Positions 9,001 through 23,937 of a stretch of DNA of 64,000 bases are shown piece by piece. The DNA is from an uncultured Bacteroidales bacterium (GTDB lineage Bacteria > Bacteroidota > Bacteroidia > Bacteroidales > CAIXZF01). The DNA is taken from contig CAIXZF010000035.1 in assembly GCA_903923925.1 (NCBI GenBank), positions 372,001 to 436,000 of the forward strand, read 5' to 3'. Below the pieces are notes generated by a model. That model made no database searches. It was not told the DNA's origin and worked only from the letters and a program-made list of their open reading frames with translations. How positions within the stretch are numbered: position 1 is the first letter of the stretch; the number at the start of each line of letters is the position of its first letter. Both the position numbers and the translations under genes were made by a program.

Positions 9001-12000
9001 ACAAGCGGTAGAATTACCGATTGATGTTACGATATCTGTTACAAAAGGAGTAACAGTTAAAGTTGCTGCATCTGAAACAGCTGTGCAAGAGCCAGAAGTT
9101 ACTACACAACGGTAGAAGTATCCATTAATTCCATAATTTACACCTGTTAGAGTCAACACAGCAGTTGATGTACCACTATAAACTCCACCATTGTTTAGAT
9201 TTGACCAGTTTCCACCATCTGCACTAAACTGCCATTGATAGGTGCCAGCATTGGCAGCTGAAATTGCAAAAGTTCCATTTTGTCCATCGGCAACTACAAT
9301 ACTTAGTGGTTGTGAATTAATTTGTGGCATTGCCCCTGATGGCGTTATTGCTCCGTTGCTGAAAACAGCTGATAGTGGATTGCCATCATAGTCGTTATAT
9401 TCGCATGCTCCTGGTGTAGTTACATCCCAGGTAAGATTACTGCTGCCCCCTAAGTAATTGAATGAAATATCTGCAAAATTACCTGAAGCCATATTGATAG
9501 GAGTAAGGCTAAACCATGAGAACCTCCAGTTACCCGGAATGCTGAAAATATTAATATCAGAAGCATTGAAAATTGGATTTACATTCTGGTATCCTGTATA
9601 TTCAAGAACTGATGGGTCATATAAAAGAGTCAATGAAATCGCTGCAACATTTTCAAGATTCTGTCCGGCAAATGGAACAGAAATAGCGTTACCTGCACAT
9701 GCCTGAGTTGAACCGATTGTTGTTATGATGTCGTTAGTAATAACAGTAATTGTGAGTGTTGCAAAATTTGAAGTTGCACTTAATCCGCAAACTGGTTCTG
9801 AAACAACACAATGATATTTCATGCCATTCATCCCAACAGTAGTTGAAGGAATATTTAAGGTAGAAGTTGTCACACCATTATAAGTTAATCCATTTGAAAG
9901 ATTAGTCCATAATGTTCCGTTTGAACTTACTTGCCATTGGTATGAACTTGCACCTGAAGCACTAATTGTAAATGATGCAGGATTACCTGAAAGTACAGTT
10001 GAATTCAATGGATTTAAACTAACCACAGGGGCAATAGCTCCGTTGGTATGAACACCGCCATTAATAAATGAAGCTGCTATAGTAAGTGCATCAATATCAG
10101 TATACTGACAATTTTCAGCTACAGAAAGATCCCAGTTTAAATTGCTGGTACCACCCAGGTAGTTGAAATTAAGATCAAGTAAAACTCCATTTCCAATGTT
10201 GGAAGGTGTTAATGAGAAATGAGAAATCTGAATTAATGAAGATGTAGCATTTATTGTAAGTAAAAATTGATCATTTAGTCCAGGGTTTACATTGCTGAAT
10301 CCTGTGTACTGAAGAACAGAAGAATTATACTGTAAGGTAAGAGAAATAGAAGCTACATTAAACAAATTCTGAACATTTACAGGAACAGAAATTGGTCCGG
10401 CACAGAAGCCTGAATTATCAATACTCGTAATAATATCCTGTCCGGCAACACTTACATTTAACTGAGCATCAGTTGTTGATACTGAGCATCCGGAATTTGA
10501 AAGTATGCAATGGTATAAATAACCGTTCATTTCAAGAATAGCTCCTGTTACATCAAGCACGCTTGTGGTTGATCCTGAATAGAAGCCACCATCTGTAATA
10601 TCACTCCAGCTAATTCCATCATTCGAACTAACCAGCCATTGATATGTACAATCTGAAGTTGATATTACCTGGAAACTACCGCTTCCGCCTTCATTTACAT
10701 TAATATCTGAAGGGTTAACAATAATAACTGGAGTTGTAATAATTTCAATATGAGCATTTCCACTCATCCAATTCTGACAACCGTTAGAATGTCCGATTAT
10801 TGTGTATTCTCCTGATGTTGAATAAGGTCCGAAAGAAATTGCACTTCCAGTACCATCTCCAACAAATCCAAAATAAGTACCATTAATATACATGGCATAA
10901 CTTACACCAACTTCACTGCCTGAAAGATTAACCATAAATTGTGATGATCCTGAGCAGCCTGTACCTCCACCTGAAACAGCAAATGCTGTTGGTAATGGGT
11001 TTACCGTTACGGCAACATCAGAACTTGAAGATGTAATGCCATCTGAAACTACTAAATGATAAGTTAACGATGAACTTGGATTAACAATTGGATTAAGGAT
11101 TGAACTTGTATAACCGTTAGAAGCAGTCCAGCTATAAGTATACGAACCTGTTCCTCCTGACACTGTTGCATTAAGTTGAATGCTTGCACCTGCACAGATT
11201 ACCTGAGGAGTTGCGGTTGCATTTACAGTTATAAGTGCTGTTGATACATTAACTACTACAGCATCTGATTGACTAACACAGCCACTTGTTGTATTAGTTA
11301 CAACCAAAGTAAAAGTAGTTGATGCTAAAAGAGCAGTAGTTGTTGGATTCTGAATATTAGGATTTACAAGTTTTGAAGCAGGTTCCCAATGGTAAGTGTA
11401 GCTGTCGCCAGATTTTCCTGTTGCGGATCCTGATAAAGTTGTTGAAGTATTATATTGAATATTCTGATCAGGACCTGCATGTGCTGTAGGGTTGTTGAAA
11501 ACCTGAACAAATGCCTCAAAGTCCATTGTAGAAGTACATAAAGTTGTATTATTGGTTGCAACAGCAGTATAAGTACCTGCAAGAGCTTGAGTTCCAAAGC
11601 TTATTGAAGAACCATTGCCATTAATAATATTACTCAATGGGTTACCATTAAGGAAAAGCTGATAATGAACACCTGATTGTGACCCATCGAGGCTTACCGC
11701 TACTCCGTTACCGGCACATGAATTTCCACCACCAATTACATTAAATACAATTGGAAGAGGATTCACTGTAATGTTAACAGTTGTTGAAGCATTTGTTAAA
11801 CCGTCAGATACAACAACTGTATAGGTTTTGCTTGAAGTTGGATTATCTGTAACAACCGGCCCGCTTGCGCTGAAACCGTCAATTGTATTCCAGGTAAATG
11901 TATAAACTCCGGTTCCACCTGTTGCAGAAGCTGACAAGGTAACCTGAGCACCCTGGCAAATTGTTAGAGGATTCCCGCTAGCCTGAACAGCTAATGGCAC

Positions 12001-15000
12001 ATTGGTTACATTAACAGTAAGCTGATCTGAACCAGAACAAGCTGTTGCTTGGTTAGTTACATTTAAGGTAAAGACTGTAGTACTTGTTAATGAATGTGTT
12101 AATGTTGTTGCATTACTTGGATTTACTACGAGAGCGGCAGGAGTCCATGAATAAACAAATGAACCTGTTCCTAATACTAATCCCGAAAGGGTTGTAACAC
12201 TGCCAACATTAATCGTTTGATCAACACCAGCATTTACAATCGGATTTTGGTTAACAGAAATCTGAGCGGTACCTGTCATTGCTGATTGGCAACTGGCAGG
12301 ACTTAATGCTGAAATTGTATAACTTCCAGGTTCTGTAAGTGGCCCAAATGATAAAGGCAAACCTGTACCTGATTTTTGACTTTGATAAATACCATTAAGG
12401 AATAAGGAATATTGATAATCAAACTGTGATCCGCTTAAAGTAACATTTACTCCAGCTGTTCCCTGGCAATATCCACCACCTCCACCAACTCCGTAAACGC
12501 TTGGAAGGGGATTAACGGTAACAGTAACACTTCCCGAAGTACTGCTTATTCCATCACTAACTGTTACAGAATAAACTGTTGTTACTGAAGGTGTTGCAGT
12601 TGGGTTGAAGATACCTGAAGTAAAACCGCCTGGTGTTGAACCCCATACATATGTGTAATTTCCTGAACCACCTTGAGCATTGGCAGTTAATTGAACTTGT
12701 GAACCCTGACAAATAATATTTGATGGAAGAACACTCGCATTTACTGTCAATGGTGTTGACGATACATTAACAACAACCTGATCTGCTGCACTTTGACAAG
12801 CTGAACTAAGATCGGTTACTACCAAGCTGAAAGTTGTTGTGAATGGTAAAGCAATAGTTGTTGGATTCTGAACATTAGCATTAACTAATGATGCAGCAGG
12901 ACTCCATGAATATGAATATACACCGCTTCCTCCACTTGCTGAACCATTTAATGTAACTGAATTGCCAATTATTGTATTTTGATCAGTACCTGCATTAGCA
13001 GTTGGCCTTGCATTAATTGTAACAGCTGTTGTTGCTGTTGCACTGCATCCATTTGAACCTGTTACTGTTACAGTATATGTTCCTGAATTTGCTACAATCG
13101 GACTGGATATAATTGGATTTTGAGTACCATTTGAAAATCCGATAGGACCAGACCACGAATACGTTGAACCGCCAGTTGCATGTAATTCTAATGGTGAGCC
13201 TGCGCAAACAGGACCAGTGTTAGATGCTCCGGCAATTGGTAATGCTCTTACAGTAACCGAAATTGATGTAGTTGCCTGACATCCGCTTCCATTTGTTATT
13301 GTTAAGGAATAATTACCTGTAGCACTAATCTGAGCAGCTGGAATTGTTGGATTTTGGCTTGTAGAAGTAAATCCATTCGGACCACTCCAACTATAAGTTG
13401 AAGCTGCACCAGAAGTTAAATTTAATGCCTGGCCTGCACATATAGGACTGTTTGATCCGGCAGAGGCTGTTGGTACTGGGTTTACAGTTGCTGAGAATGA
13501 TGCAACTGCAGAACAACCACCACTATTTGAAACAGTAACTGAATAGCTGCCTGAAGCGGCTGTAGTTACATTAATGATAGATGGGTTTTGTTGTGTTGAA
13601 GCAAATCCGTTTGGACCAGCCCAGTTGTATATGCTTCCACCATTTGCCTGCAAATTTAATGTCAGGCCAGCACAAACCGGGCTGTTTATTGCAGATGCGG
13701 ATGCTATTGGAATACTGCTGATTGTGAGTGCATGATTTGAAGCTGCACCAACTCCACAATTGTTTTCTCCGTGAACAGATACAATACCTGTTATAGCAGA
13801 GTTTGTAACAGAAACAGTTATGCTGTTTGTATTACCGCCACTTGTTAGTGTAACCCCACTTGGTAGTGACCATATATAAGAGGTAGCACCTGAAATAGGA
13901 GCAACTGAGAAAACTAAACCTGTTGTTCCCTGGCATGCTGTTGCTGGTCCTGAAATAGTGCCGGCAGCAGATGGTGTGGAAGGATTAATTACAACCTCAG
14001 TACTACCGGTTGCAGTACAACTGTTTGAACCAGTAACTGTTATTGCATATGTCCCACTATTAAGTGCTGACACATTTAATATAGTTGGATTCTGATTTGT
14101 TGTAAAAAAACTATTTGGACCAGCCCACTGATAAGAAATACCACCGTTTGCAGTAAGATTCAATGTTGCACCCGGGCATAAAGGACCGTTATTGGCAACT
14201 GTGATCTGTGGTGCGGGTTTAACTGTAACTACTCCACTACCTGAAACTGTACCTGAGCAATAAACGTTGCTGACAGATACAAGTGTGTAGGTCGTTGTTA
14301 CAATAGGAGTAACCTGTAATGGGTAAAAATTCTGTGTAATTCCATTTATTGTAAACTGATTTGTCCCATCTGAATAAACCAGACTTAGCGGCTTCGAACC
14401 AGTTAAATTAACGTTGAGCTGTGCTGTAACTCCTGCGCAAACCTGAGGAGTACCTGAAATACTTGCTGTTGGAGGAGAAACGTTGACAATAGAAACAGTT
14501 CCTGTCATCGTTGTTGATCCGCAATCATTGGTGCCAACCACTGAATAAGTGCCAACTGCAGTCTGAGCTGGGAATGAAATTCCTGATCCGGTTCCGGTTA
14601 TTGGTGATCCAATAGCTATTGTGCCATTTTTAAGTTGATAGAAAACTCCCAATTGTGAATTCGCTAAACTGATAGCAGCTCCAGGGCCAGTTGTACAAAC
14701 TGTGCCACCCCCGCTAACCAGGTAGGCTGTGGGGCAAGGAACAGAAACTGTTAAATTAACTGCATTTGAATTGGTGAAATTATATGGAATAGGGCAGTTA
14801 CCACCAAGAACGCAACGGTATTTGTAATTGTTCATACCAAGTAGAGCATTACTAATCGTTAGAGTGTTGGTTGTTACATTTGAATAGGTTGCATTATTGT
14901 TTAAATTACTATATGAAGTTCCTGAGTTAACGCTTAATTGCCATTGATAGGAAATTGTTTCTACTCCGGTTAACGTTATTGATCCGGTTGCTCCCGGAGC

Positions 15001-15585
15001 TAAAGTTAAAGGCAATGGTTGTTGTGATATAGAAGGACTTGTATGTACGTTGCCATCTGTAAAGGTTGCAGGTAATATTGTAAAATTGGGATCTGAATAA
15101 TTGTTAAGATTTGGGTTTGGGTTCCATACCAGATTTGTATAACCTGAATGATTGTGCATATGAAACTTTAAATTGACCAGTAATCCGGAACCAATTGTTA
15201 TCGATCCGCTGATAATGAAAAAGCCGATTGTAACTGTGCCAGCATCATCATTGGCAAGAAAAATACCATTTACATTGGGATTCAGGTTTAAATACGTAAT
15301 AGTATTCTGCGCATTTAGTACCGGAGACATCACTGTAGTGTCGTAAGTAAACTGTAAAGAAGCTGACGCGACATTAGTGAAGTTCTGTACGTTAACAGGT
15401 ACTAGAACGTCCTGACCAGGACAGGTACTAACCGTTCCCAAAGTGGTAACGATGTTCTGAGCCTGAGTGTTGGCTGAGAAAGTGACCAGTGCAAATAGCA
15501 ATGCTATTACTACGGCATTTGTCACATTCCTTGTTGCTGAAAAAGCATCATTTACTTTTTTCATGAGCGTAAGGTTTGGTTCCAT
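1..15585 (-). CDS. Giant secreted poly-cohesin/Ig-like repeat protein (C-terminus beyond window)
   Basis: The frame is open from the ATG at 15585 to base 1, giving 5195 codons, and the protein continues past the left edge. A second in-frame ATG at 15564 is an equally good start; both precede a hydrophobic signal segment ending near ANTQAQ. Order after the signal: cohesin-like module 1 (about residues 40-180), an Ig-like module with YQWQ and YRC motifs, a long stretch of PKD/Ig-like modules (about residues 280-1610), then nine further cohesin-like modules separated by Ig-like modules (about 1615-4310). Arrays of a 74-residue repeat follow modules 8, 9 and 10, and the last readable part returns to PKD-like sequence with PYTYSW motifs. 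Most cohesin modules carry one Cys near the start (CPG/CAG) and one near the end (CEYxDxDGN), a likely disulfide. I saw no catalytic domain. It is probably a T9SS-exported surface scaffold or adhesin; the sorting domain would lie outside the window. I saw no stop in the reading, but a sequencing frameshift cannot be excluded by eye. Confidence 0.9.
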   Translation of the reverse strand, partial: MEPNLTLMKKVNDAFSATRNVTNAVVIALLFALVTFSANTQAQNIVTTLGTVSTCPGQDVLVPVNVQNFTNVASASLQFTYDTTVMSPVLNAQNTITYLNLNPNVNGIFLANDDAGTVTIGFFIISGSITIGSGLLVNLKFHMHNHSGYTNLVWNPNPNLNNYSDPNFTILPATFTDGNVHTSPSISQQPLPLTLAPGATGSITLTGVETISYQWQLSVNSGTSYSNLNNNATYSNVTTNTLTISNALLGMNNYKYRCVLGGNCPIPYNFTNSNAVNLTVSVPCPTAYLVSGGGTVCTTGPGAAISLANSQLGVFYQLKNGTIAIGSPITGTGSGISFPAQTAVGTYSVVGTNDCGSTTMTGTVSIVNVSPPTASISGTPQVCAGVTAQLNVNLTGSKPLSLVYSDGTNQFTINGITQNFYPLQVTPIVTTTYTLVSVSNVYCSGTVSGSGVVTVKPAPQITVANNGPLCPGATLNLTANGGISYQWAGPNSFFTTNQNPTILNVSALNSGTYAITVTGSNSCTATGSTEVVINPSTPSAAGTISGPATACQGTTGLVFSVAPISGATSYIWSLPSGVTLTSGGNTNSITVSVTNSAITGIVSVHGENNCGVGAASNHALTISSIPIASASAINSPVCAGLTLNLQANGGSIYNWAGPNGFASTQQNPSIINVTTAASGSYSVTVSNSGGCSAVASFSATVNPVPTASAGSNSPICAGQALNLTSGAASTYSWSGPNGFTSTSQNPTIPAAQISATGNYSLTITNGSGCQATTSISVTVRALPIAGASNTGPVCAGSPLELHATGGSTYSWSGPIGFSNGTQNPIISSPIVANSGTYTVTVTGSNGCSATATTAVTINARPTANAGTDQNTIIGNSVTLNGSASGGSGVYSYSWSPAASLVNANVQNPTTIALPFTTTFSLVVTDLSSACQSAADQVVVNVSSTPLTVNASVLPSNIICQGSQVQLTANAQGGSGNYTYVWGSTPGGFTSGIFNPTATPSVTTVYSVTVSDGISSTSGSVTVTVNPLPSVYGVGGGGGYCQGTAGVNVTLSGSQFDYQYSLFLNGIYQSQKSGTGLPLSFGPLTEPGSYTISALSPASCQSAMTGTAQISVNQNPIVNAGVDQTINVGSVTTLSGLVLGTGSFVYSWTPAALVVNPSNATTLTHSLTSTTVFTLNVTNQATACSGSDQLTVNVTNVPLAVQASGNPLTICQGAQVTLSASATGGTGVYTFTWNTIDGFSASGPVVTDNPTSSKTYTVVVSDGLTNASTTVNITVNPLPIVFNVIGGGNSCAGNGVAVSLDGSQSGVHYQLFLNGNPLSNIINGNGSSISFGTQALAGTYTAVATNNTTLCTSTMDFEAFVQVFNNPTAHAGPDQNIQYNTSTTLSGSATGKSGDSYTYHWEPASKLVNPNIQNPTTTALLASTTFTLVVTNTTSGCVSQSDAVVVNVSTALITVNATATPQVICAGASIQLNATVSGGTGSYTYSWTASNGYTSSILNPIVNPSSSLTYHLVVSDGITSSSSDVAVTVNPLPTAFAVSGGGTGCSGSSQFMVNLSGSEVGVSYAMYINGTYFGFVGDGTGSAISFGPYSTSGEYTIIGHSNGCQNWMSGNAHIEIITTPVIIVNPSDINVNEGGSGSFQVISTSDCTYQWLVSSNDGISWSDITDGGFYSGSTTSVLDVTGAILEMNGYLYHCILSNSGCSVSTTDAQLNVSVAGQDIITSIDNSGFCAGPISVPVNVQNLFNVASISLTLQYNSSVLQYTGFSNVNPGLNDQFLLTINATSSLIQISHFSLTPSNIGNGVLLDLNFNYLGGTSNLNWDLSVAENCQYTDIDALTIAASFINGGVHTNGAIAPVVSLNPLNSTVLSGNPASFTISASGASSYQWQVSSNGTLWTNLSNGLTYNGVTTSTLNIPSTTVGMNGMKYHCVVSEPVCGLSATSNFATLTITVITNDIITTIGSTQACAGNAISVPFAGQNLENVAAISLTLLYDPSVLEYTGYQNVNPIFNASDINIFSIPGNWRFSWFSLTPINMASGNFADISFNYLGGSSNLTWDVTTPGACEYNDYDGNPLSAVFSNGAITPSGAMPQINSQPLSIVVADGQNGTFAISAANAGTYQWQFSADGGNWSNLNNGGVYSGTSTAVLTLTGVNYGINGYFYRCVVTSGSCTAVSDAATLTVTPFVTDIVTSIGNSTACSGDQIVVPVNGQYLQNVAAISLTLNYNPAVLTYENYQNLNSAFSPSEININSTPGQWFFSWFSLTPINLNSADIIDLVFTYNGGTTNLTWDLTTPGFCEYDDFDGNSLPAIYNNGIATSNGLLAEITGQPVNLTVNDGDNANFSLIANNASAYQWQISTNGGGSWNNISNGGMYSGATSSNLVLTAVNFTLNSYKYRCLVTGDVCVVTSNAATLSVYSAGSVILTTAANATECPGNTVVVPVNGQYLYNVAAISLTLNYNPGVLSYEGYQNLNSAFNPSEININAIPGQWFFSWFSLTPVNLNSADIIDLVFTYNGGTSNLTWDVTTPGFCEYNDFDGNSLASAYNNGTVTSSGAVAEITAQPVNQAVNDGSNANFSITANNASTYQWQISTNGGVSWTNIIDGGMYSGATTSNLVLTAVNYTLNTNQYRCLVTGDVCVEISNSALLTVYTAGSVVLTTASNVTECAGNTVVIPVNGQYLYDVAAISLTLLYDPAVLTYNNILNLNSAFNMAEVNIFSLPGDLRFSWFSLTPVNLFNENLFDIDFTFNGGYTNLTWDVATSGNCEYTDYNGNSLLANYTNGSVSSAGISPTFNSQPSSVAVNHHDNATFDVVVSGAVSYQWQVSMNGGLNWTDLSENSVYSGVTSDELLITNAIYLYNGNQYRCVVAGEYCTLNSSAATLTVIAPEQFTIITTAGSENSCPGSDIVIPINVTDFYNVASISLSLDYDASVLDYTGYSNLNPGLADGLVSPTVGQFLFSWYSLTPLSLGDGKIVDLMFHYNGGISDLTWDIVTPGYCEYTDFDANTMSASFVNGTVSSSAVQAVLNSNPLDVTAYASESATFSVDATNVTSYQWQVSNDGGSSWSNVIDGATYNGASTSALTIPYLVYELNNNLYHCVVSGTCGLNSTSTAASLTVIIQPTIIITAGTVVNCANSITIPVTAENFDNVAAMSLTLNYDNSVLNYEGYENLNAGFASGFISINSIGGQIKAGMFTIAPISIGNGLLFDLNFSSTGGSSALTWDVTVPGNCMIQNINLFVLTTTFVDGTATVNPLPIVTLGQTISTCIDSEPFALNGLPEGGAYSGVGVEGNMFYPSSNGAGTFVVTYTFTDGNGCTNSASQEITVNPLPEVSFGMVNSICLNAETINLSGTPEGGLFSGNGVENNTFNASNAGTGIHTITYFYTDGNGCSNTATQEINVLPVPSILSNPVSLSVDEGGNATFSVIAENAGLYQWQVSSDGGANWADVANNAVYSGVSTTELVISGASYDMNGNQYHCTASGDCSPSVTSEAAVLTVYPVLTITAGSVTQCAGNFVIPVTAEHFYSIASMSLTLNYDNTVLTYTGYQNVNPVLNTGVIVISELDGQVKAGAFSITPLNLGDGLLVEYLFSSTGGSTSLTWDLTTPGNCEFANFDEHLLTVHYNNGSVVVNALPTVTLDPSTAACIDASPVILNGMPEGGSYSGTGLEGNLFFPAIAGVGVHTISYTYTDNNGCVNSTTQEITVNALPEINFGPIAAVCFNSNAVELSATPEGGIFTGTAVEGNLFDPAVAGAGTYTISYTYTDGNGCTNSASQEITVNTLPVVTLNELGSICINANPIALTGLPEGGSYSGIGVEGNMFYPAVAGAGTYSITYTYTNENGCTASSSQAVTVNALPEVTLGQLGAVCISAFPIVLNGTPTGGVYSGTGVDGDIFYPSVAGAGAFSITYTYSDVNGCTNSSIQEITVNALPEVVFNALSPICLNAEPLLLNATPAGGVYSGTGIVENMFNPSVSGLGTFTLTYTYTDGNGCINSASQDITVNEVSQLVAIGSSVICAGETADITVEFIGGVAPWTFVYNGNTITTSANPYIFSVSPTISTIYDFTSVSDANMCTSNIQTSVNITVLPITSILSSPSSVTVDETGNTSFSVEAQNATGYQWQVSTNGGNDWADISEIGIYSGTNTATLTLAGVTLAMNGYEYQCIVSGTCPTTTISGSATLTVNPIIKTIAGNAVSCAGNVVIPITVEHMYGVASMSLSLNYDNSVLNYVGYQNVNSELLNGFYQIDAYNSQIKAGFFSVIPANIGDGLLFDIVFSSTGGFSNLTWDLVEVGNCEYQNLDGNNITSVYINGDVLIHALPVVTLAPVAPLCINSSSIVLNGLPSGGVYSGTSIDGDVFYPTIAGAGVFAITYTYTDNYGCVNSTIQEITVNALPEINFGAIAAVCFNSNSVELNATPQGGIFTGTAVEGNMFDPATAGPGTYTITYTYTDGNSCTNSTTQEITVNALPVVTLSEPGSMCISANPIALTGLPEGGSYSGVGVAGNMFYPSVAGAGTFTITYTYTDENACTVSTSQPVTVNDLPVVSLDQLGAVCNNASPVALNGTPAGGVYSGTSVEGNVFYPTIAGTGVFAITYTYTDGNGCINSTMQEIIVNALPEINFGAIAAVCFNSNSVELNAAPQGGIFTGTAVEGNMFNPAVAGPGTYTITYTYTDGNGCTNSASQEITVNALPVVTLSEPGNICVSANALTLYGSPVGGSYSGVGVEGNMFYPAVAGPGTYTISYTYTNENGCTSSTSQPVTVNALPVVTLGELGAVCNNASPISLYGTPAGGVYSGSGVIGNVFNPELTEVGVHTITYTFTDEFGCANFATQEITTLEATFVSIGNLGGICQNADVFALTQGQPAGGTYSGTGVVGNTFNPAEAGVGTHLITYTYTNTYGCTTSATTTIVVNPLSNPIIVPVSPVCYNAPAVTLVGLPAGGTFSGTGVVGNTFDPATVATGTYTITYTFTNEFGCISSTSLNVDVVKPLQFTVIGGGAFCAGGSGFVVALASSEIGMQYHLYRNGIATGVVVSGTGSVISFGTQIVAGTYTVVGVNSVTACSVPMFGSAEIIVNPAPNVYTGGYSIICQGTSTTLNANVVGGTGPYNYQWIPATNLSNATIANPIANPASTAFYTVIVTDANGCTDSDNALVVVNQAANVNAGPDKTITLGLSTTLNSYVTGGHAPYTYSWTPAIGLNNANILSPLASP
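670..2663 (-). repeat. Tandem 222-base repeat array 3 (9 units, 666-base super-repeat)
   Basis: Nine direct repeats follow cohesin module 10. Exact 222-base boundaries fall at 2663, 2441, 2219, 1997, 1775, 1553 and 1331; the last three units are a few bases longer and more diverged. Units fall in three types that recur in order, giving a 666-base period: the stretch from 1553 to about 1780 is nearly identical to the stretch from 2219 to about 2446. This points to recent duplication or gene conversion. Confidence 0.87.
3602..4712 (-). repeat. Tandem 222-base repeat array 2 (5 units)
   Basis: Five direct repeats of exactly 222 bases follow cohesin module 9, with boundaries at 3602, 3824, 4046, 4268, 4490 and 4712. 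Units keep GG.(Y/F)(S/T)G, a YTYTD.NGC or close variant, and Q.(I/V)TVN. They end in a different Ig/PKD-like unit between about 3360 and 3602. Confidence 0.88.
5399..5843 (-). repeat. Tandem 222-base repeat array 1 (2 units)
   Basis: Two direct repeats of 222 bases (74 residues) lie after cohesin module 8, with boundaries at 5399, 5621 and 5843. Each unit reads LP.V..G..., one Cys, GG..SG.GVE.N.F, YTDGNGC and QEI.V. The fold looks like the Ig-like family common in Bacteroidota surface proteins. Confidence 0.85.
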
Positions 15586-16079: not shown

Positions 16080-17120
16080 CTATTGAATAATAAACTTTTT
16101 ACATATGCGAAACTGTTCTGTTGATGTTGAACCATATAAAATCAGGTAGTAACTTCCAGCACTATAGTTATTTGTATTAATTAAGAGTTCTGATTTACCT
16201 AAAACAGGACGAAAACACTCACAAATTGTGAATTGATTACCAGTTGCATTAACTAGCCTGATATTCAGTGATATATATTTATTAACAAAAAGATTTAATT
16301 TGATGTTATCTGTAACCGGATTATTTATGTATTGAATGCTCAATGGTGCATTCTTTTCTGTTTCATTTATGGCATCCGGGCCTTTGGTTTTGAACCTGAC
16401 TATAGTTGACCAAAGTGTTGTATCATAAGGATTATATCCGCGTATTCGGCTAAAATAATTTGTGTTTTCAGTTAACCCATTATATTGTATTGTTGTTCCA
16501 AATATTGAATTTTGTGAAATACTTACTTGTTGAAACGTGGAATCTTCTGAAATTTGAAGTTCATAATGAGGTGCACAATTTGACCCTGTCCAACTAAATC
16601 CGAGGTTAGTTGGTTGGTTAATCGCAAAATTCGGAGGGTTTAATATGCCTGGAATTTGCATGTGATTTTCAATGATCCCATTAAAGAATTTTGAAGGCAA
16701 TTCATTCCCGTCAAGGTCTGTGTAAACGCAACTTCCTGCAGTGGCAACATCCCAATTTAGCTGAATTGGGGAGTGGCCAAGATATTCGAACTTTAGATCA
16801 AGTATACTTCCATTTCCAATTGTAACTGGCTGGAGGGAAAACCAGGAGATTATAATTTGTTGATTTGTGGCATTTATAAAAAATAGACCTGAATTAAATA
16901 CTGGATTTAAGTTCTCGTAGGATTGGTATTTTAAATAGCTTGTATCGTATTTAATTATTAATGATATGGATGCTATGTTGTTAAAATTTTCTACTGATAC
17001 TGGTATTATCACATTACCCGGACAAATAGTAATCTGTGGAAGACTTGAAATAATTGTATCCTGACTAAATGATGAAAAAGGCAGGTAGATAATAAGTAAT
17101 AACGATATAAGTTTTTTCAA
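16080..17120 (-). CDS. Secreted single-cohesin protein with T9SS-like C-terminal domain
   Basis: 346 residues. A signal peptide (about 1-20) is followed by one cohesin-like module (about 22-150) of the same type as in the giant neighbour, with CPG at the start and CVYTDLDGNE at the end, so the probable disulfide pair is kept. A fibronectin-III-like region follows (about 155-245; FSWTGS, YELQIS, YFSRIRGYN). The last 85 residues have the strand pattern of a type IX secretion sorting domain (NPVTDNIKL, SAGSYYLILYG, KKFIIQ). It lies between the 2240-residue protein and the giant protein, all on the minus strand. No good -7 box was seen in the 50 bases before the start, so it may depend on read-through from upstream. 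No enzyme motif was seen. Confidence 0.85.
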   Translation of the reverse strand: MKKLISLLLIIYLPFSSFSQDTIISSLPQITICPGNVIIPVSVENFNNIASISLIIKYDTSYLKYQSYENLNPVFNSGLFFINATNQQIIISWFSLQPVTIGNGSILDLKFEYLGHSPIQLNWDVATAGSCVYTDLDGNELPSKFFNGIIENHMQIPGILNPPNFAINQPTNLGFSWTGSNCAPHYELQISEDSTFQQVSISQNSIFGTTIQYNGLTENTNYFSRIRGYNPYDTTLWSTIVRFKTKGPDAINETEKNAPLSIQYINNPVTDNIKLNLFVNKYISLNIRLVNATGNQFTICECFRPVLGKSELLINTNNYSAGSYYLILYGSTSTEQFRICKKFIIQ

Positions 17121-17214: not shown

Positions 17215-20200
17215 TTATTCGCCAATAACCATAGATTTAGTTTTGGTAATACCATTAACATCGAGTTTGTAATAGTATACACCACGTTGAATGTTGGTAG
17301 CATCGAAATTAACGAAATGTGTTCCAACAGTTTGATCTGTATTAACAAGAGTTACAACTTCTTCTCCCAGTACATTGAATACTTTCAGAGTTACAAAACC
17401 TGATTTAGGCATTGTGTAACTGATTTGAGTAGTCTGGCTGAATGGGTTTGGATAATTGCTGAGACTGTAATCGTCTGCGTTTACACTTGAAACAAGTCTA
17501 GGCATTAACAAACTTACGTTGTCGTAATCGTTTGCTGATTCATTGCTAAGAACACTTTCTTCAGTTGAAATGAAGCTCATGTCTTTCTTAGTAATTGAAT
17601 TTGCTTTAACACTTAATTTCAGCAGAACATCACCAGCCTTTAGGTTAAGAGCTTCTGTACTGAACCATGCAAGTCTCAGGTTGCCATCTTTTGCTGAATA
17701 AACAAGGTTTTCTGAAGTATTAGCTACAGTAACACCTGTGATTTCTAGGTTAGAAGGGTAATTGAGTACAAGAGAAATTGCACCAACAGTCATTGCATTT
17801 TCTGCATAGATTGGAAGTTCAACCGTTCCGTCAAGTAGCATACTGCCTTCAGTTCTGAGGTTAACAGTAGGAGTTTGTTTGAAAGGAGCAGGTGTCGATG
17901 GTGGGATATAACTACCATTAACATCACCAGCGCAAAGTGCTTTCAAATTTTGAGTCTTATTTGCTGTTCCGTCTACTACTACTGAGAAGTGCTCATAATA
18001 CCAGTCTGGTCCACCAGGAGCTGATACATATGGAGGCAAGAAACTTGGAATAGAGCCTACGAATCTCCTTGATACTGCAAGAGCATCAGCAGAGTTTGGT
18101 AAACCGTTACCATTTACGTCAGCTGCAAGAATTCTTAAACCTGCGAGCATTGGAGGTAATTGTACAAAGTGACGAAGGATAGCTAAAGCATCACTTGCAT
18201 TCAATCCACCATGAGCTTTTTGAGTTGCAAAGTTGATAGAATATGTACCATTAGCGATTGTGCTGAACAAATAATGTCCAAGGTTATCTGTAATAGTAGT
18301 ATATGCTAAAGTACCATTCTGTGACAATGAAACAGTAGAATTGTTCATTGCTGTGTTTGCGTTATTGTCGTATTTAACATAACCGGAAACATCTGAACAT
18401 GTACCGTAAGTTAATAAACCATCTGTATAGTTACTTGGCATTACACCTAGTATGAGGTTTGAGAACTGACTTGGCTCTGATCCGCCAACAGTCCAGATAA
18501 GACTATGTGAACCTGGAGATGTTGTGTAGATAATGTTAAATAATGCCTGTCCATCAGGAATATTAGTAGGTGTAACTGAGAACCAGTTAGCCTGTAATGA
18601 AGATGCAGCAACATTAAATACAATCTGTCCACTGGCTAGTGCAGGATTTTCGAATTCATAACCTGCATATGTTAAACCAGCAGTCCAGCTTAATGAAAGA
18701 AGGAAGCTGTTAACATTATTAAAGTTAGTAACTGTAACTGGAATGCTCTTTGTACCAGGACATGTTTCAGTTATAGTAGGAGCAGTTACATGAATCGGAG
18801 GAATCGGAGCAGAAATGTAAACACCATAATCTTCTACTTCACCCCATGATGTGATACCACATGGTGCAAGTGTGTTTACTGAACCGTCGACAATCCTAAC
18901 CCTCATTGTTGTTGGGCCAGGCAGTGCAGTTGCTGGAACTGATACGTTTGCTGAGTATGGTCCACCACCCGGGTTACCATTGAAAGCAATAAGTTCGCCA
19001 ACATCTTCCCAATCGAAATCCTGATTGTAGTCAATCCATGCACCGCATAGGTCAGCATAATATGGGAATCCGTTTACTACTGACATTGGATAAACTGTTC
19101 CAACTGCCAAAGTAGTAGAGATATTTGTATAGTTACTGTAATGCTGTCCTGCTGCCATACCAGTTGTATTGTTGATAGTTCCAATTGTTACGTTGGAAAT
19201 ATACTCATAGCTATTGGTTGCACCTGCTGGGCAGTATTTAGGCGGATTCAGTGCTAATCTGAAAGTGTACTTGTTATGTGATAAACAGGTCATATCATAC
19301 TCGGCGAAGTTTGGAGCTACGATAAGTGCATAAGTACCTGGCTGCATATTAAGTTCGATACTGTCAGTTGAACATCTGTTGAAAGTTTTGAAAGTAAGGA
19401 TGTTACTGCTTGAACATGGAAGACTTACAAGAATGAAGTCAGCAAGGAATTCAGCAGTACCTTTAATTTTAACACTTTTTGATGATGTTAAAGTAAACCT
19501 GTACCAGTCAGTATCTCTCATTGTATCAACAAGCCATGTGGATCCACAGAATGCTTGTCCGTTTAGCATGTCAACATACTGAGCAACTGGCATATTACAG
19601 CCACCATTCAGGTCAAGAGCACAATCTTCTGGCTCCTGAATATAGTTTGGATAGCATGTAATTGTACCGCAAGCTGTGTTGTAGATCTTTTTGCCTGTAG
19701 AGTCGTTCTGCTGCTTTGGATCACCGGTAACACCGCTTATCCAGGCCTGTACGATGTACATACCAGGAGCTGACATATCAAGGTCGGTCTGGAATGCATA
19801 GGTCATTTCTTCACCTGGTTGTAAAGCGTAGTTAGCAGTATAAAATCCCCAGTTTTCTGTTACAACTGCACCATTATTAAATTTATAATGAAGGTCAAAG
19901 TTGTCAACAGCGGTTGCACCAAGGTTTCTTACAGCTACACCAATAGGCTCATGTGCAGTTAAGTTACCACTCATTGGATAATTGATCCACTTCAAAGCGA
20001 GGTCAACGCTAACTGGTTCATTTACAAAAGGAATGGCGAATCCGCACATTTCAATTCCATGAGCAAATCCATTAACAAGACTCATGTTGAGGCCGGTTGG
20101 ACTGTATTTGAAAAGATTACCTGATGACGTATAGGCAGCAAGGAAAAGCTTACCTGTTGAATAATTAAATTCAGCATCCTGAGCATAATTCCATGCACCT

Positions 20201-23200
20201 GTTGGTAGAGTTTCTACGAAAGTTACCTGTGGGGTACCTGTCATTGATGAAAGTGGATCGATTACATAGAGACGCTGTGTTACAAGGTCAACAGTATATA
20301 GTAAACCACCTGGGCTACAAGCAAGGTTGATAGGAAGACCCATTTCAACACCAAGATCAGCATACTCTGTTGCTGCTCCTGTAGCTAGATTGATAGTATA
20401 TAATTTGGTATCCCAAACATTTACTCCGGTACTATTACTAACAAGACCGTAAGTAGTATTGGTTGTCATATCATATGTCATACCATTAACACCTACACCA
20501 AGAGGACCCATACTTGTCATTACACCAGTAGTAGTATTGATTTTGTAAAGGTGACCATGGTTGTATGTTGGAGGTGCATAATATTCAGCAGCATACCAGT
20601 TATTATGTCCTAAAGTATCGTTAACCCAAGCACCAGCACAAATAAAGCTGGTTGATGAGGTAGCGGCCATTGGAGTAATGCTTTCTGGATGCTCCAGTAA
20701 GAATTTAACCGGACCCTGAGCAAACGGAGTTGCACTTGGATCGTAAGCATTGTAACCATATACCTGAGTCTGAGCTGCGTCAACATTAACTCCCTTAGTT
20801 TTACAGTTATTTGGAATGTGCATATCACCAGCCAAAACAGTACAAACTGTGAAAGGTTGTCCGTAACCTGCTGTTGCACCCCAAGGAGCACAATTGTCGA
20901 AAATTACGTTTGCAGTCATACCGGAATAAACAGAAACAGTCTTGGTACAAGTGTAACCGTTAGGTCCTGTTGCAACTACATCAAAAGTTTCGTCATTAAG
21001 ACCAAAGTTTTTAACTGTACAATGAGGAGTGTATGGACCCTGTAAAATATAAGCAGGGAAGTCAACACTTAATACGCCTACGTCATGTGCCAGTGGCATG
21101 TAAGTGTAGTTAACAATCAGGTGAGGTCTGTTAACCTGAGCCCAACCGTCCATTGAACCACGGTAGCAAGCAGCACATGCTTCATATTCATGAACACCAA
21201 CTGCAAACCAGTCAAGGCCCTGAGTGTAAATTGAATAGATGAAGTCAGTTTTTGCCTGAGCACCAAGGTCAAATGTATGCCAGCCAACTGTATAACCACC
21301 GGTTGTTGAGAAATAAGTTGGGTTGGCCAAAATATTTGCATGAACCTGGGCAGCTGTTCCAGCCATTGGATTCTGTAATAATTGCTTTACATTGAAGTAA
21401 GGAGCACCAGACTGGAAATTCATATAATATTCGAATGAAAGTGAATTCAGCGTTCCACCTGGGAACATACCACCAACATAGAATTTAGCATAACCCTGAT
21501 AGGACATACTTTCAAAGTTGATAAGACTGTTCTGTGTGAATGAAGATCCATTAGTTGTACCTGTCCAGTAAGGAACATTCAACGGATAGAGCGTATCAAT
21601 TGCAACAGGCAACAGTTTGGTAACTGAGAAATTTTTGCAATTGTTTGCTAAATTCTGATCACCAACCAGTCCTGTACAAGCATGAATCAAATAAGTCTGT
21701 CCGAAAGTACTCATCTGGGCATGTGTTGCAAAGGTGAAATCATAAGTTCCGATTGGAGCTACTGTTGCAAGGCAGGTTTCTGTAACAACAGTACCGCCGT
21801 CAACCTGGTAAGTTACAGGGAAATTTGATTGTGGCGATGTGCCATAATTCCGGATACGAACTGTAACAATAGTATTGTTATTTAAAGTTGGTCCGCTAAC
21901 AGGAGCAACTAAGGTTTGAATTCCTATATCATTCGGAACAGGAATATAACCATAAGTAACAATAAGGTAAGGCCTGTTTGTTTGAGCCCATCCATCAGCT
22001 ATACCATTATAACCAGCATAACTTTCATACTCATAGAAACCAACACCCCACCATCCGGCAGCTTGTGTTGAAGTCATACTTGTAATAGCTGCTGCTGGAA
22101 GAACTTTTGAATGCCAGCCTACAGCATAATCACCGGTCATATTTCCAATATAAGCAGTACCGGTAGTAATCTGGGAATATGCAGCGGCAGCAGTACTTGT
22201 CATCGGATTAGTAGTCAGATGAGTAAGGCTGTAATAAGGAGCGCCACTCTGATAATTCATATACCAATGAATAGATGCATTCTGAATAACACCGTTTGAA
22301 GGTATCTGATTCATATTAAAAGTAGCATAACCATCATAAGACATACTTGCAAACTTGATGAGACTGGTTTCAGTGAATGAAGTTCCATTCGTTGTACCAG
22401 TTGCATAAGGAGCATTTAATGGATAAATGGTGTCTGTTAATGTAGGCAGTGAGTGTGTAACAACAACTGTTTTACAGTCATTGGCTGGGTTCTGGTCTGT
22501 AGCTAATGCTGTACATGCATAAATTGTATATGCACCAAAGCCTGAGAGGTTGGCAACACCAACTGTAACGTTAGCAGTTGTGTTTGGCTGAATTGTAACA
22601 GGACAATTAACTGAAGTAGAAGAACCACCATTTACTGTGAAGAAAATAGGGAAGCCTGATTCAGCTGTAGTTCCGTAATTCTGAACTTTTACAACTACGC
22701 TTTCTGTGGCACCAAGAGCTGGACCAGTTACAGGAGATACAAGAGATTTAACTCCTACATCGTGTGTATAAACAATTGTATTAGCCATTTCGTAAACAAA
22801 ACATGCGAAAGGAATAATATTTGTTTGAACGCAACCAAGTAATACGAACTTACCTGGAACCATAGCAGCAGAAGAACCAAGACCACCAGCGATTGAGCCG
22901 GCAGGCAGAGCTGGGTTCATGTCAGGAAGTACATTGTGAGTAACACCAGTGAATGATGTTGTGTTAATATCCCACTGACGCAGGCTGCATGAAGGGTAAG
23001 GATTTGACTGGTCGAATAACCAGAGACAAGGTGAACCAGGTACAGAATATGGGTCATAAGCAGAACCATAAATGGAAGGAGCGCCTATTGATTGAACAAC
23101 AAGAGTAGCACCACCTGTGGTAATACTTCTGAGTGAAGTCCAGTCACCAATCCAGAAACCACCTGCAAGTGAATTTAAGTCAGGATCATAAGAAATATGA

Positions 23201-23937
23201 CGAACGATTTGTGGTGCTGCAATAGAACCAACTAGAGTTGATGTTGCAAAATCAACTTTTGCAATTGTAGTAGCTCCGCAACCTACATAGAAATATTGTC
23301 CATCGTAGCACATATCCCTGGCGCCGCCAGGCATACCTGCGATAGTAATATCAGAAATAAATACACCGTTGAGGTCATATTTTTCAAATTTGCCCGCAAC
23401 CTGCCAGTAACCTACATAGATGTAGTTACCATCAGTTTCGATGGCAGTACAAGCATTTGTGGTACTATTTGAATTCCATTGCAGAAGTACATCCCACATT
23501 GCATCTGTATTATCAGTTGCTTTAGGGGTGAACGCTCCTTCAATTTGTGAAGGAGTCACATCAGCAGCAGTAATGTGGTTAGCTAATTGCGCCGCTTTTT
23601 GCGTCACATAGGCCTCCCTGGCATTTAGTGCTTCAATTTTTGCTGCAGCCTCAGCATTCAGGTTCTGCGTTGATTGAGCAGGTTGCAGAACTGGTGTCTT
23701 TGCAGAAGCTTCGCTTACATTCTTTGCAGGAGCAGCGGTTTCTTCCAATGCATTGTACACCTCTGTTTCCAGCTTCCAATGAGCAGGCCTGTAATTAGAG
23801 GTAGCATCACCGTTCTGAACTGTTTTTTGTACCGGACCCTTGTTAACGGGCTCGGCTTTCTGGGCGAATAAATTCATCCCAAAAAGAAAAGCAGGAATCA
23901 GAAGCAGATACTTCAACTTTGTTGTTTTTCTTTCCAT
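17215..23937 (-). CDS. T9SS-secreted multidomain protein with cohesin-like and dockerin-like segments
   Basis: 2240 residues. Domains in order: signal peptide (1-26); low-complexity Ala-rich region; a propeller-like region (about 150-390); two tandem copies of a CARDB-like plus DNRLRE-like unit (about 394-668 and 669-949; each ends in DGWAQ.NRP.LIV.Y); a third CARDB-like piece; a second propeller-like region (about 1060-1330); a GEVED domain (about 1566-1708; WIDYNQDFDWED, WGEVEDYG); a cohesin-like domain (about 1714-1842); a carboxypeptidase-regulatory-like strand set; a dockerin-like segment (about 1905-1960); a second cohesin-like domain (about 2022-2150); and a type A T9SS sorting domain (NYPNPFSQTT, GVYYYKLDVNG) to the end. 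The first cohesin keeps the leading Cys but lacks the second one seen in the neighbours. It is likely attached to or released from the cell surface after T9SS export. The binding partner is inferred, not seen. Confidence 0.9.
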   Translation of the reverse strand: MERKTTKLKYLLLIPAFLFGMNLFAQKAEPVNKGPVQKTVQNGDATSNYRPAHWKLETEVYNALEETAAPAKNVSEASAKTPVLQPAQSTQNLNAEAAAKIEALNAREAYVTQKAAQLANHITAADVTPSQIEGAFTPKATDNTDAMWDVLLQWNSNSTTNACTAIETDGNYIYVGYWQVAGKFEKYDLNGVFISDITIAGMPGGARDMCYDGQYFYVGCGATTIAKVDFATSTLVGSIAAPQIVRHISYDPDLNSLAGGFWIGDWTSLRSITTGGATLVVQSIGAPSIYGSAYDPYSVPGSPCLWLFDQSNPYPSCSLRQWDINTTSFTGVTHNVLPDMNPALPAGSIAGGLGSSAAMVPGKFVLLGCVQTNIIPFACFVYEMANTIVYTHDVGVKSLVSPVTGPALGATESVVVKVQNYGTTAESGFPIFFTVNGGSSTSVNCPVTIQPNTTANVTVGVANLSGFGAYTIYACTALATDQNPANDCKTVVVTHSLPTLTDTIYPLNAPYATGTTNGTSFTETSLIKFASMSYDGYATFNMNQIPSNGVIQNASIHWYMNYQSGAPYYSLTHLTTNPMTSTAAAAYSQITTGTAYIGNMTGDYAVGWHSKVLPAAAITSMTSTQAAGWWGVGFYEYESYAGYNGIADGWAQTNRPYLIVTYGYIPVPNDIGIQTLVAPVSGPTLNNNTIVTVRIRNYGTSPQSNFPVTYQVDGGTVVTETCLATVAPIGTYDFTFATHAQMSTFGQTYLIHACTGLVGDQNLANNCKNFSVTKLLPVAIDTLYPLNVPYWTGTTNGSSFTQNSLINFESMSYQGYAKFYVGGMFPGGTLNSLSFEYYMNFQSGAPYFNVKQLLQNPMAGTAAQVHANILANPTYFSTTGGYTVGWHTFDLGAQAKTDFIYSIYTQGLDWFAVGVHEYEACAACYRGSMDGWAQVNRPHLIVNYTYMPLAHDVGVLSVDFPAYILQGPYTPHCTVKNFGLNDETFDVVATGPNGYTCTKTVSVYSGMTANVIFDNCAPWGATAGYGQPFTVCTVLAGDMHIPNNCKTKGVNVDAAQTQVYGYNAYDPSATPFAQGPVKFLLEHPESITPMAATSSTSFICAGAWVNDTLGHNNWYAAEYYAPPTYNHGHLYKINTTTGVMTSMGPLGVGVNGMTYDMTTNTTYGLVSNSTGVNVWDTKLYTINLATGAATEYADLGVEMGLPINLACSPGGLLYTVDLVTQRLYVIDPLSSMTGTPQVTFVETLPTGAWNYAQDAEFNYSTGKLFLAAYTSSGNLFKYSPTGLNMSLVNGFAHGIEMCGFAIPFVNEPVSVDLALKWINYPMSGNLTAHEPIGVAVRNLGATAVDNFDLHYKFNNGAVVTENWGFYTANYALQPGEEMTYAFQTDLDMSAPGMYIVQAWISGVTGDPKQQNDSTGKKIYNTACGTITCYPNYIQEPEDCALDLNGGCNMPVAQYVDMLNGQAFCGSTWLVDTMRDTDWYRFTLTSSKSVKIKGTAEFLADFILVSLPCSSSNILTFKTFNRCSTDSIELNMQPGTYALIVAPNFAEYDMTCLSHNKYTFRLALNPPKYCPAGATNSYEYISNVTIGTINNTTGMAAGQHYSNYTNISTTLAVGTVYPMSVVNGFPYYADLCGAWIDYNQDFDWEDVGELIAFNGNPGGGPYSANVSVPATALPGPTTMRVRIVDGSVNTLAPCGITSWGEVEDYGVYISAPIPPIHVTAPTITETCPGTKSIPVTVTNFNNVNSFLLSLSWTAGLTYAGYEFENPALASGQIVFNVAASSLQANWFSVTPTNIPDGQALFNIIYTTSPGSHSLIWTVGGSEPSQFSNLILGVMPSNYTDGLLTYGTCSDVSGYVKYDNNANTAMNNSTVSLSQNGTLAYTTITDNLGHYLFSTIANGTYSINFATQKAHGGLNASDALAILRHFVQLPPMLAGLRILAADVNGNGLPNSADALAVSRRFVGSIPSFLPPYVSAPGGPDWYYEHFSVVVDGTANKTQNLKALCAGDVNGSYIPPSTPAPFKQTPTVNLRTEGSMLLDGTVELPIYAENAMTVGAISLVLNYPSNLEITGVTVANTSENLVYSAKDGNLRLAWFSTEALNLKAGDVLLKLSVKANSITKKDMSFISTEESVLSNESANDYDNVSLLMPRLVSSVNADDYSLSNYPNPFSQTTQISYTMPKSGFVTLKVFNVLGEEVVTLVNTDQTVGTHFVNFDATNIQRGVYYYKLDVNGITKTKSMVIGE
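18050..18215 (-). other. Dockerin-like segment inside the 2240-residue protein
   Basis: Two F-hand-like repeats: GGLNASDALAILRHF and ADVNGNGLPNSADALAVS. The second has the full calcium-loop pattern (D1, N3, N5, N9, D12). The first keeps N9 and D12 but lacks ligands at 1, 3 and 5. A further GDVNGS lies about 50 residues later. This matches type I dockerin-like sequences in Bacteroidota, with one degenerate loop. Confidence 0.75.

Follow-up and report, generated by a model that had tools for sequence, protein, structure and literature searches.

In cellulosomal X-dockerins, the X module and the dockerin follow each other along the chain. For Bacteroidota, one genome study reports that no cohesins or dockerins were found, consistent with other Bacteroidetes genomes (PMC5831590). 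A single-cell study reports Pfam dockerins in genomes assigned to Alistipes, Bacteroides and Bacteroidales, none of them accompanied by a cohesin, the one cohesin being that of a Christensenellales genome (PMC10266427). Closest to what we describe here is Candidatus Stygibacter (Cloacimonadota), which combines a tandem-cohesin scaffoldin bearing a CTD for surface attachment with enzymes carrying C-terminal dockerins (GH18, GH57, S8/S53 and C25) (PMC8542988), so that the principle is already known, in another phylum. Neither a nested or permuted dockerin nor a comparable Bacteroidota system of cohesins and dockerins came up in our search of the open-access literature; a Bacteroidota genome with about 60 dockerin modules and about 50 cohesins would be unusual and points to a cellulosome-like surface machine.

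We analyzed a window of 64,000 nucleotides, meaning the whole stretch of DNA studied, from an uncultured Bacteroidales bacterium, in which a 2240-aa protein, P0001, is encoded. In our preferred reading, which we hold with fair confidence, P0001 is a T9SS-exported surface scaffold subunit made of cohesin 1, a nested X-dockerin with a split calcium loop, cohesin 2 and a T9SS tail, working within a cellulosome-like complex.

Domain order of P0001 and its two cohesins

Domain scans, fold comparisons and conservation gave the following features, all on the minus strand (-):

17215..23937 (-), ORF of P0001, 2240 aa: signal-like N-terminus (by eye), CARDB-like stretch, GEVED, cohesin 1, nested dockerin, cohesin 2, T9SS tail
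18820..19044 (-), GEVED domain, residues 1632-1706 (PF20009, 68.3 bits)
18412..18801 (-), cohesin 1, residues 1713-1842 (neighbor-cohesin HMM, 66.3 bits; cohesin fold, Z 15.2 to 6kge_A)
18223..18402 (-), first part of the sandwich (transthyretin-like/SdrD_B), residues 1846-1905 (SdrD_B 27.5 bits, below the cut-off of 29.7; fold match 3e8v, Z 11.8)
18004..18222 (-), dockerin F-hand pair, predicted to be inserted in the sandwich, residues ~1906-1978 (helices in both models; PF00404 16.1 bits in linear order)
18190..18210 (-), putative calcium loop 1, second half, GGLNASD (N1913 = position 9, D1916 = position 12; module conservation)
18085..18120 (-), putative calcium loop 2, D1940-D1951, DVNGNGLPNSAD (sequence and module conservation)
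17932..18003 (-), last strands of the sandwich, residues 1979-2002 (strands between positions 134 and 157 of the model of residues 1846-2015, within the range of the transthyretin-like matches)
17911..17928 (-), GDVNGS, residues 2004-2009, proposed first half of calcium loop 1 (conservation and rotated-sequence tests)
17488..17871 (-), cohesin 2 (divergent), residues 2023-2150 (2xdh, E 1.2e-6; hhalign probability 98.1)
17224..17454 (-), T9SS type A sorting domain, residues 2162-2238 (TIGR04183, 33 bits)
16080..17120 (-), 346-aa protein between P0001 and the giant frame: one cohesin, fn3-like stretch, T9SS-like tail (PF00963 32.8 bits; tail 14.3 of 23 bits)
1..15585 (-), in-window part of the giant frame (5621 residues stop to stop), with scaffoldin-type cohesins (10 cohesins)

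The initial annotation had read a cohesin-like, a dockerin-like and a second cohesin-like domain ahead of a sorting domain in one chain, and this order was confirmed: an HMM built from the 11 cohesins of the two neighboring ORFs scored 66.3 bits on cohesin 1 and 20.6 bits on cohesin 2, and TIGR04183 scored 33 bits on the tail. The domain scans also placed an SdrD_B/CarboxypepD_reg region between cohesin 1 and the dockerin. Recurrence of the arrangement is far beyond chance, related modules matching 62 times in the same genome and a cohesin, which ends 59 to 65 residues upstream, preceding 8 of the 44 own-genome modules that were read.

Cohesin 1 has a predicted cohesin fold, since most of the 50 best structure matches shown for positions 1 to 140 of the model described below were cohesins, with 6kge_A at Z 15.2 and an rmsd of 2.1 over 125 aligned residues (VIA-align). 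The Pfam cohesin model PF00963 gave no row for P0001 at E≤1 and matched the 346-aa and giant ORFs. Cohesin 2 proved to be kin to cohesins when compared with a profile of cohesin 1 and the neighboring cohesins (hhalign probability 98.1), its best match among solved structures being Archaeoglobus fulgidus 2xdh (E 1.2e-6, profile A6). Genome-wide, profile A5, the rows of which include the eleven cohesins of the two neighboring ORFs and cohesin 1 itself, gave 51 cohesin matches at E≤1.1e-9. The cohesin-2 HMM, which draws on G001 and G053 among others and has only one own-genome row, gave 35 strong matches in the genome (E≤3.7e-20); 30 were directly behind known modules by position, 4 more once read, and 1 was a stand-alone protein. 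This last one (L179, G000:C72:123972-124394) is a 190-aa frame holding cohesin 2 alone after a signal-like N-terminus, and it alone among the 35 has no preceding module. Because cohesin 2 is so strictly tied to the module and to the T9SS tail, we took it as a fixed neighbor of the module, and its most likely place in P0001 would be that of an invariant element between dockerin and tail.

The TIGR04183 match (33 bits) and the presence of SprA in the genome (one copy, 2656 bits, SprA being the sole T9SS part searched) mark P0001 as T9SS type A cargo, and the protein would thus be exported by this system; at least 150 T9SS tails are encoded in the same genome. Two genes downstream, the giant frame carries 10 cohesins, as befits a cellulosomal scaffoldin with several of them, and these are followed, beyond the window edge, by a nested-dockerin module, a cohesin 2 and a T9SS tail. 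Spacer domains of the PKD, Ig and fn3 types are abundant in these proteins. Adjoining the cohesin cluster in the window (24714-63854), genes for a sigma-54 regulator, an ABC transporter, DnaJ, EPSP synthase and UvrD, then EF-G, SecY and enolase, form an ordinary chromosomal neighborhood.

An F-hand pair predicted within a transthyretin-like sandwich

We modeled residues 1708-2158 with AlphaFold2 from an alignment of 36 rows, drawn from the window and related loci only (mean pLDDT 89.4, pTM 0.79), and residues 1846-2015 from an alignment of 37 rows (pLDDT 94.2, pTM 0.86). Both models placed an F-hand helix after each of the two loops, as in type I dockerins, at model 207-217 and 242-253 in the longer and at 69-79 and 104-114 in the shorter one; the monomer prediction proposed in the initial annotation thus returned F-hand helices with confidence. 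By its own terms, the same annotation would have been contradicted by a segment that folds as part of a larger beta domain with no F-hand helices, or by related proteins lacking conserved dockerin residues. The outcome is divided: the larger beta domain is indeed there, but the F-hand helices and conserved dockerin residues are present too. In addition, the pTM of the three-domain chain suggests a fixed domain arrangement.

The model of residues 1846-2015 matched domains of the transthyretin-like, CnaB and SdrD kinds. Several uninterrupted transthyretin-like domains, each about 80 residues long, aligned over model 3-159, among them 3e8v (78 of 82 residues at 1.9 Å), 5aq0_B (81 of 82 residues at 1.8 Å) and 1qmu_A (80 residues at 1.6 Å), leaving 76 to 77 residues within this range unaligned, about the length of a dockerin. 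On the basis of this unaligned stretch and of the order of helices and strands, we interpret the dockerin as inserted ahead of the final strands of the sandwich; by computation, the F-hand pair is inserted inside a transthyretin-like (SdrD_B/CnaB) sandwich in the predicted structures. As strands alternate in direction, the one leading into the insertion and the final one would end on the same side, which would bring GDVNGS near the dockerin entry. Transthyretin-like and CnaB domains also ranked first in a Foldseek search with the module alone, in which the X-dockerin chains 4wi0_B and 4u3s_B appeared only at an rmsd of >11; the lack of a nested dockerin there proves nothing. The module of P0001 contains an insert of the type PP..PG..W, which recurs in all four modules of the protein pairs at loci L047 and L073.

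Against the Pfam dockerin model PF00404, P0001 scored 16.1 and 22.1 bits in two scans and did not reach the curated cut-off of 22.9 bits, and 44 of the 46 own-genome matches lay above it. Given the missed cut-off and the linear order of the loops, we did not file the P0001 dockerin as a standard type I dockerin. When a profile of 44 own-genome modules was compared with solved structures, the best two were chains named serine protease (8x3a_A, 2.6e-13), followed by the solved dockerins 4uyp_B (2e-7) and 1ohz_B (2.2e-6), the latter matched from profile position 8. The two F-hands of a module are 46% identical, and F-hands of different modules are just as alike (46%).

Module copies and likely partners

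A search of the genome contigs with a single protein found no relative; a search with an 8-row alignment led to 31 loci. Sorted by the number of residues after the module, 56 own-genome modules comprised 22 with 0 to 5 residues, 31 with 205 to 245, 2 others and 1 that was cut. Corresponding counts for short-ended, long-tailed, other, cut and incomplete modules were 30, 33, 7, 2 and 1 in G001, taken as RA.bin97 (73 modules); 1, 14, 3, 1 and 1 in G053, taken as SMBSF77 (20 modules); and 7, 14, 0, 1 and 1 in the remaining genomes (23 modules). RA.bin97 and SMBSF77 are placed in the own genome's family and order. All but two (L017 and L173) of the 31 own-genome long tails match the cohesin-2 HMM, and an NCBIfam scan of these tails found TIGR04183 in 29 and FISUMP in 2. 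At L017, L173 and L014, the module is followed by a FISUMP-like C-terminus and not by cohesin 2 and a T9SS tail (two match TIGR02145; L014 was assigned by eye).

In the own and other genomes together, 33 proteins end ≤5 residues after the module match. The enzymes among them are an M14 carboxypeptidase (L028), a metallophosphatase (L021), heparinase II/III-like proteins (L022 and L065) and a gingipain-like C25 protein (L052); no cellulase was found among the 29 of the 33 that were domain-scanned, several of which are N-terminally incomplete. Where the N-terminus is complete, 23 of 25 have a signal-peptide-like start by eye, L027 and L067 being the two without. The C25 protein (L052:3921-8240) has a propeptide, and its module stops before the GDVNGS motif (match 2-80). 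Tandem pairs of secreted proteins of ~185-205 aa, little more than the module itself, were seen at L047:1786-2962 and L073:2323-3594, this tandem pair being present in both G000 and RA.bin97.

Modules that end their protein (A) and modules followed by cohesin 2 (B) differ chiefly at columns 85-99 and also at column 13 (p 7e-4, 97 tests), which is loop-1 position 11, near the classical recognition residues; A and B modules may thus not share all partners. We rejected the idea that the two kinds have quite different docking faces, the clearest differences lying at the C-terminal strand and one at loop-1 position 11, and also that they form two clades, as a tree of 130 modules from three genomes required at least 25 label changes. 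With shuffled labels the mean was 41 changes and the minimum of 200 shuffles was 33, compared with the 25 found, indicating that the A/B type is partly inherited, yet often switched.

Across a set of 59 related genomes including the own genome, modules occurred in 15 and Pfam cohesins in 20. Among the 58 relatives other than the own genome, 10 had both, 4 modules only, 9 cohesins only and 35 neither (Fisher p 0.0008, a guide, the genomes being related). A draw across the phylum yielded one module match each, at E≤1e-10, in 7 of 117 other genomes, one of them close (G124, 134 bits). At least 26 modules were found only in the own genome, G001 and G053 among the genomes searched; G040 has 9. A MAG contig labeled uncultured Ignavibacteria KTt_bin-1687 (CAIOZA010000052.1, L051:8001-8306) is identical to own contig C57 (L020) over a 2483-base overlap and is probably a mislabeled or mis-binned contig of the window's species.

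In our preferred reading, the P0001 dockerin would most likely dock on cohesins carried by other chains, for instance those of the 10-cohesin scaffoldin encoded two genes downstream. Cohesin 1 would receive module-ended proteins, some of them enzymes, and the result would be a cellulosome-like complex at the cell surface. Since the same module ends many proteins and the 10-cohesin protein is encoded downstream, other chains are no less probable as partners than P0001 itself, and docking to other chains appears to fit best. Counted against this reading are the column differences between A and B modules, Pfam cohesins without modules in 9 relatives and modules without Pfam cohesins in 4, the nature of the enzymes (proteases, a phosphatase and heparinase-like lyases), and the fact that we know of no route by which module-ended proteins cross the outer membrane. 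This raises the question of how dockerin-tailed enzymes without a T9SS tail get to the surface. One answer, which we put forward as quite improbable, would be that these enzymes fold in the periplasm and that their split-loop dockerin engages a cohesin on a scaffold protein with a T9SS tail. This partner would then take the enzyme along through the T9SS pore or retain it at the surface, so that the cohesin-dockerin pair would serve as an export ticket locked by calcium.

P0001 could instead pair with itself within the chain, or polymerize head to tail via its own cohesins and dockerin. A cohesin directly before 8 of 44 own-genome modules, a cohesin 2 behind the module in 34 of the 35 strong cohesin-2 matches and the fixed domain placement suggested by a pTM of 0.79 would all agree with this, but 22 of the 56 own-genome modules end their protein and hence have no cohesin 2 behind them, and another protein, with 10 cohesins, is encoded close by, two genes downstream. 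In our judgment, self-pairing or polymerization is unlikely. We likewise give little credence to the view that the module serves surface proteins as a spacer stiffened by calcium, with no docking and with a likeness to cohesins and dockerins in fold only. Modules and cohesins tend toward the same genomes, and the 46% identity between F-hands is of the order seen in dual-mode dockerins; on the other side, PKD, Ig and fn3-type spacers are plentiful in these proteins and the Pfam cohesin model does not match cohesin 2.

The first calcium loop and comparison with known systems

According to the initial annotation, the first dockerin loop had lost D1, N3 and N5, and only the second was complete. 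In linear order this stands, as T1905, K1907 and H1909 occupy positions 1, 3 and 5 of loop 1, so that only loop 2, contained in ADVNGNGLPNSAD (residues 1939-1951 of P0001), is a complete 12-residue loop; the lost ligands, however, are probably supplied by GDVNGS at 2004-2009, a motif that lies ~90 residues after the first loop. A degenerate linear loop 1 is the rule of the family, with D or N at positions 1, 3 and 5 in 0 of 108, 3 of 146 and 0 of 163 modules, respectively.

Conservation was computed for 167 of 172 modules, chosen as reaching the motif (match from position ≤10 to ≥98). The first residue of the GDVNGS-type motif was D in 166 and E in 1, position 3 was N or D in 164 and position 5 was S in 153 of 166, and the second half of loop 1 had N9 in 160 and D12 in all 167. 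Loop 2 had D1 in 145 and D12 in 167. When D, N, S, T and E were all counted as ligands, the motif gave 167, 167 and 166 versus 166, 164 and 155 for the first half of loop 2 (of 167 each), which would make the latter about as conserved as the motif and counts against the split-loop argument. Because the 167 modules had been chosen as reaching the motif, a core-only search provides the less biased figure: 162 of 168 cores were followed by G[DE]x[NDST]x[STND] no more than 60 residues on, compared with 51 of 726 stretches of 60 residues drawn at random from the same frames, with modules left in. The six exceptions were four variants (ADVNGS, SDVNGD, SDVNMD and GDVNGE), one module that ends early and one with a long insert and then GDVDGS (L080). 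In this last, from Sphingobacteriaceae MAG BC.015 (L080:7986-8696), ~137 extra residues stand between the dockerin core and the GDVDGS half.

We then rotated module sequences, moving the motif half before GG-VN, with the junction picked so as to restore a 12-residue loop. The Pfam dockerin score exceeded that of scrambled motifs in 10 of 10 modules (32.1-50.2 versus 22.9-39.6 bits; gain of 4.6 to 14.6, mean 9.8 bits), the P0001 module reaching 37.5 bits versus 22.9 when scrambled. In 5 of 5 modules, a joint 2 residues longer or shorter lowered the score by 8.9-11.8 bits. Among the top covarying pairs were columns 73-85, 71-88 and 70-89 (hairpin), 18-52 (between the two F-hands) and 9-91, this last across the split at z 3.4, which is consistent but weak. 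The 46 own-genome Pfam dockerin matches started at profile position 8 (31 matches), 11 (11), 12 (1), 4 (1) and 2 (2), and in the two starting at position 2 (L016 and L044) loop 1 is complete in linear order, with no GDVNGS-type motif behind it.

GDVNGS is thus apparently the missing first half of loop 1. Ligands 1, 3 and 5 would come from GDVNGS after the last strand and ligands 9 and 12 from GGLNASD, which lies at the insertion's entry, probably giving the dockerin a pair of calcium sites instead of a single one. From these sequence comparisons, we infer a nested, circularly permuted dockerin with a split calcium site. That the dockerin instead binds one calcium, with loop 1 plainly degenerate and GDVNGS an unrelated conserved turn or a separate half-site, would fit the linear reading of loop 1 and the calcium binding of Dx[DN]xDG motifs described in several non-EF-hand folds (PMC3123361), but is quite unlikely given that the motif begins with D in 166 of 167 modules versus 145 for loop 2 D1 (166 with N and E), matches the dockerin profile precisely where positions are lacking and with the right spacing, and is missing from the two linear dockerins of the own genome.

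If the split site is real, this textbook EF-hand module would have been circularly permuted in nature, its first loop being completed from ~90 residues downstream within another fold, and the split-loop dockerin would be a ready-made part for protein assembly.

Compared with the known systems, Ca. Stygibacter belongs to another phylum, and the passages of its report that we consulted name four dockerin enzymes and one scaffoldin, with no mention there of a split or nested dockerin or of a dockerin-cohesin-CTD cassette (PMC8542988). The non-cellulosomal cohesin of Archaeoglobus fulgidus (2xdh) is the best solved match of cohesin 2, which in P0001 is instead fused between the dockerin and the T9SS tail. 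With type I dockerins (PF00404), the module shares the F-hand pair, the profile match and the match to solved dockerins, but at least the first 7 profile positions are missing linearly in 43 of the 46 genome matches and have apparently moved to the C-terminus. Finally, 3kcp_A, CohI9-X-DocII of CipA, was among the structure matches (226 residues over model 1-254, but at an rmsd of 9.8). P0001 resembles this Clostridium thermocellum protein in having a cohesin, an Ig-like domain corresponding to the X module and a dockerin in one chain, and differs from it in that the dockerin is predicted to lie inside the sandwich, that its first loop appears to be split and that a second cohesin and a T9SS tail follow.
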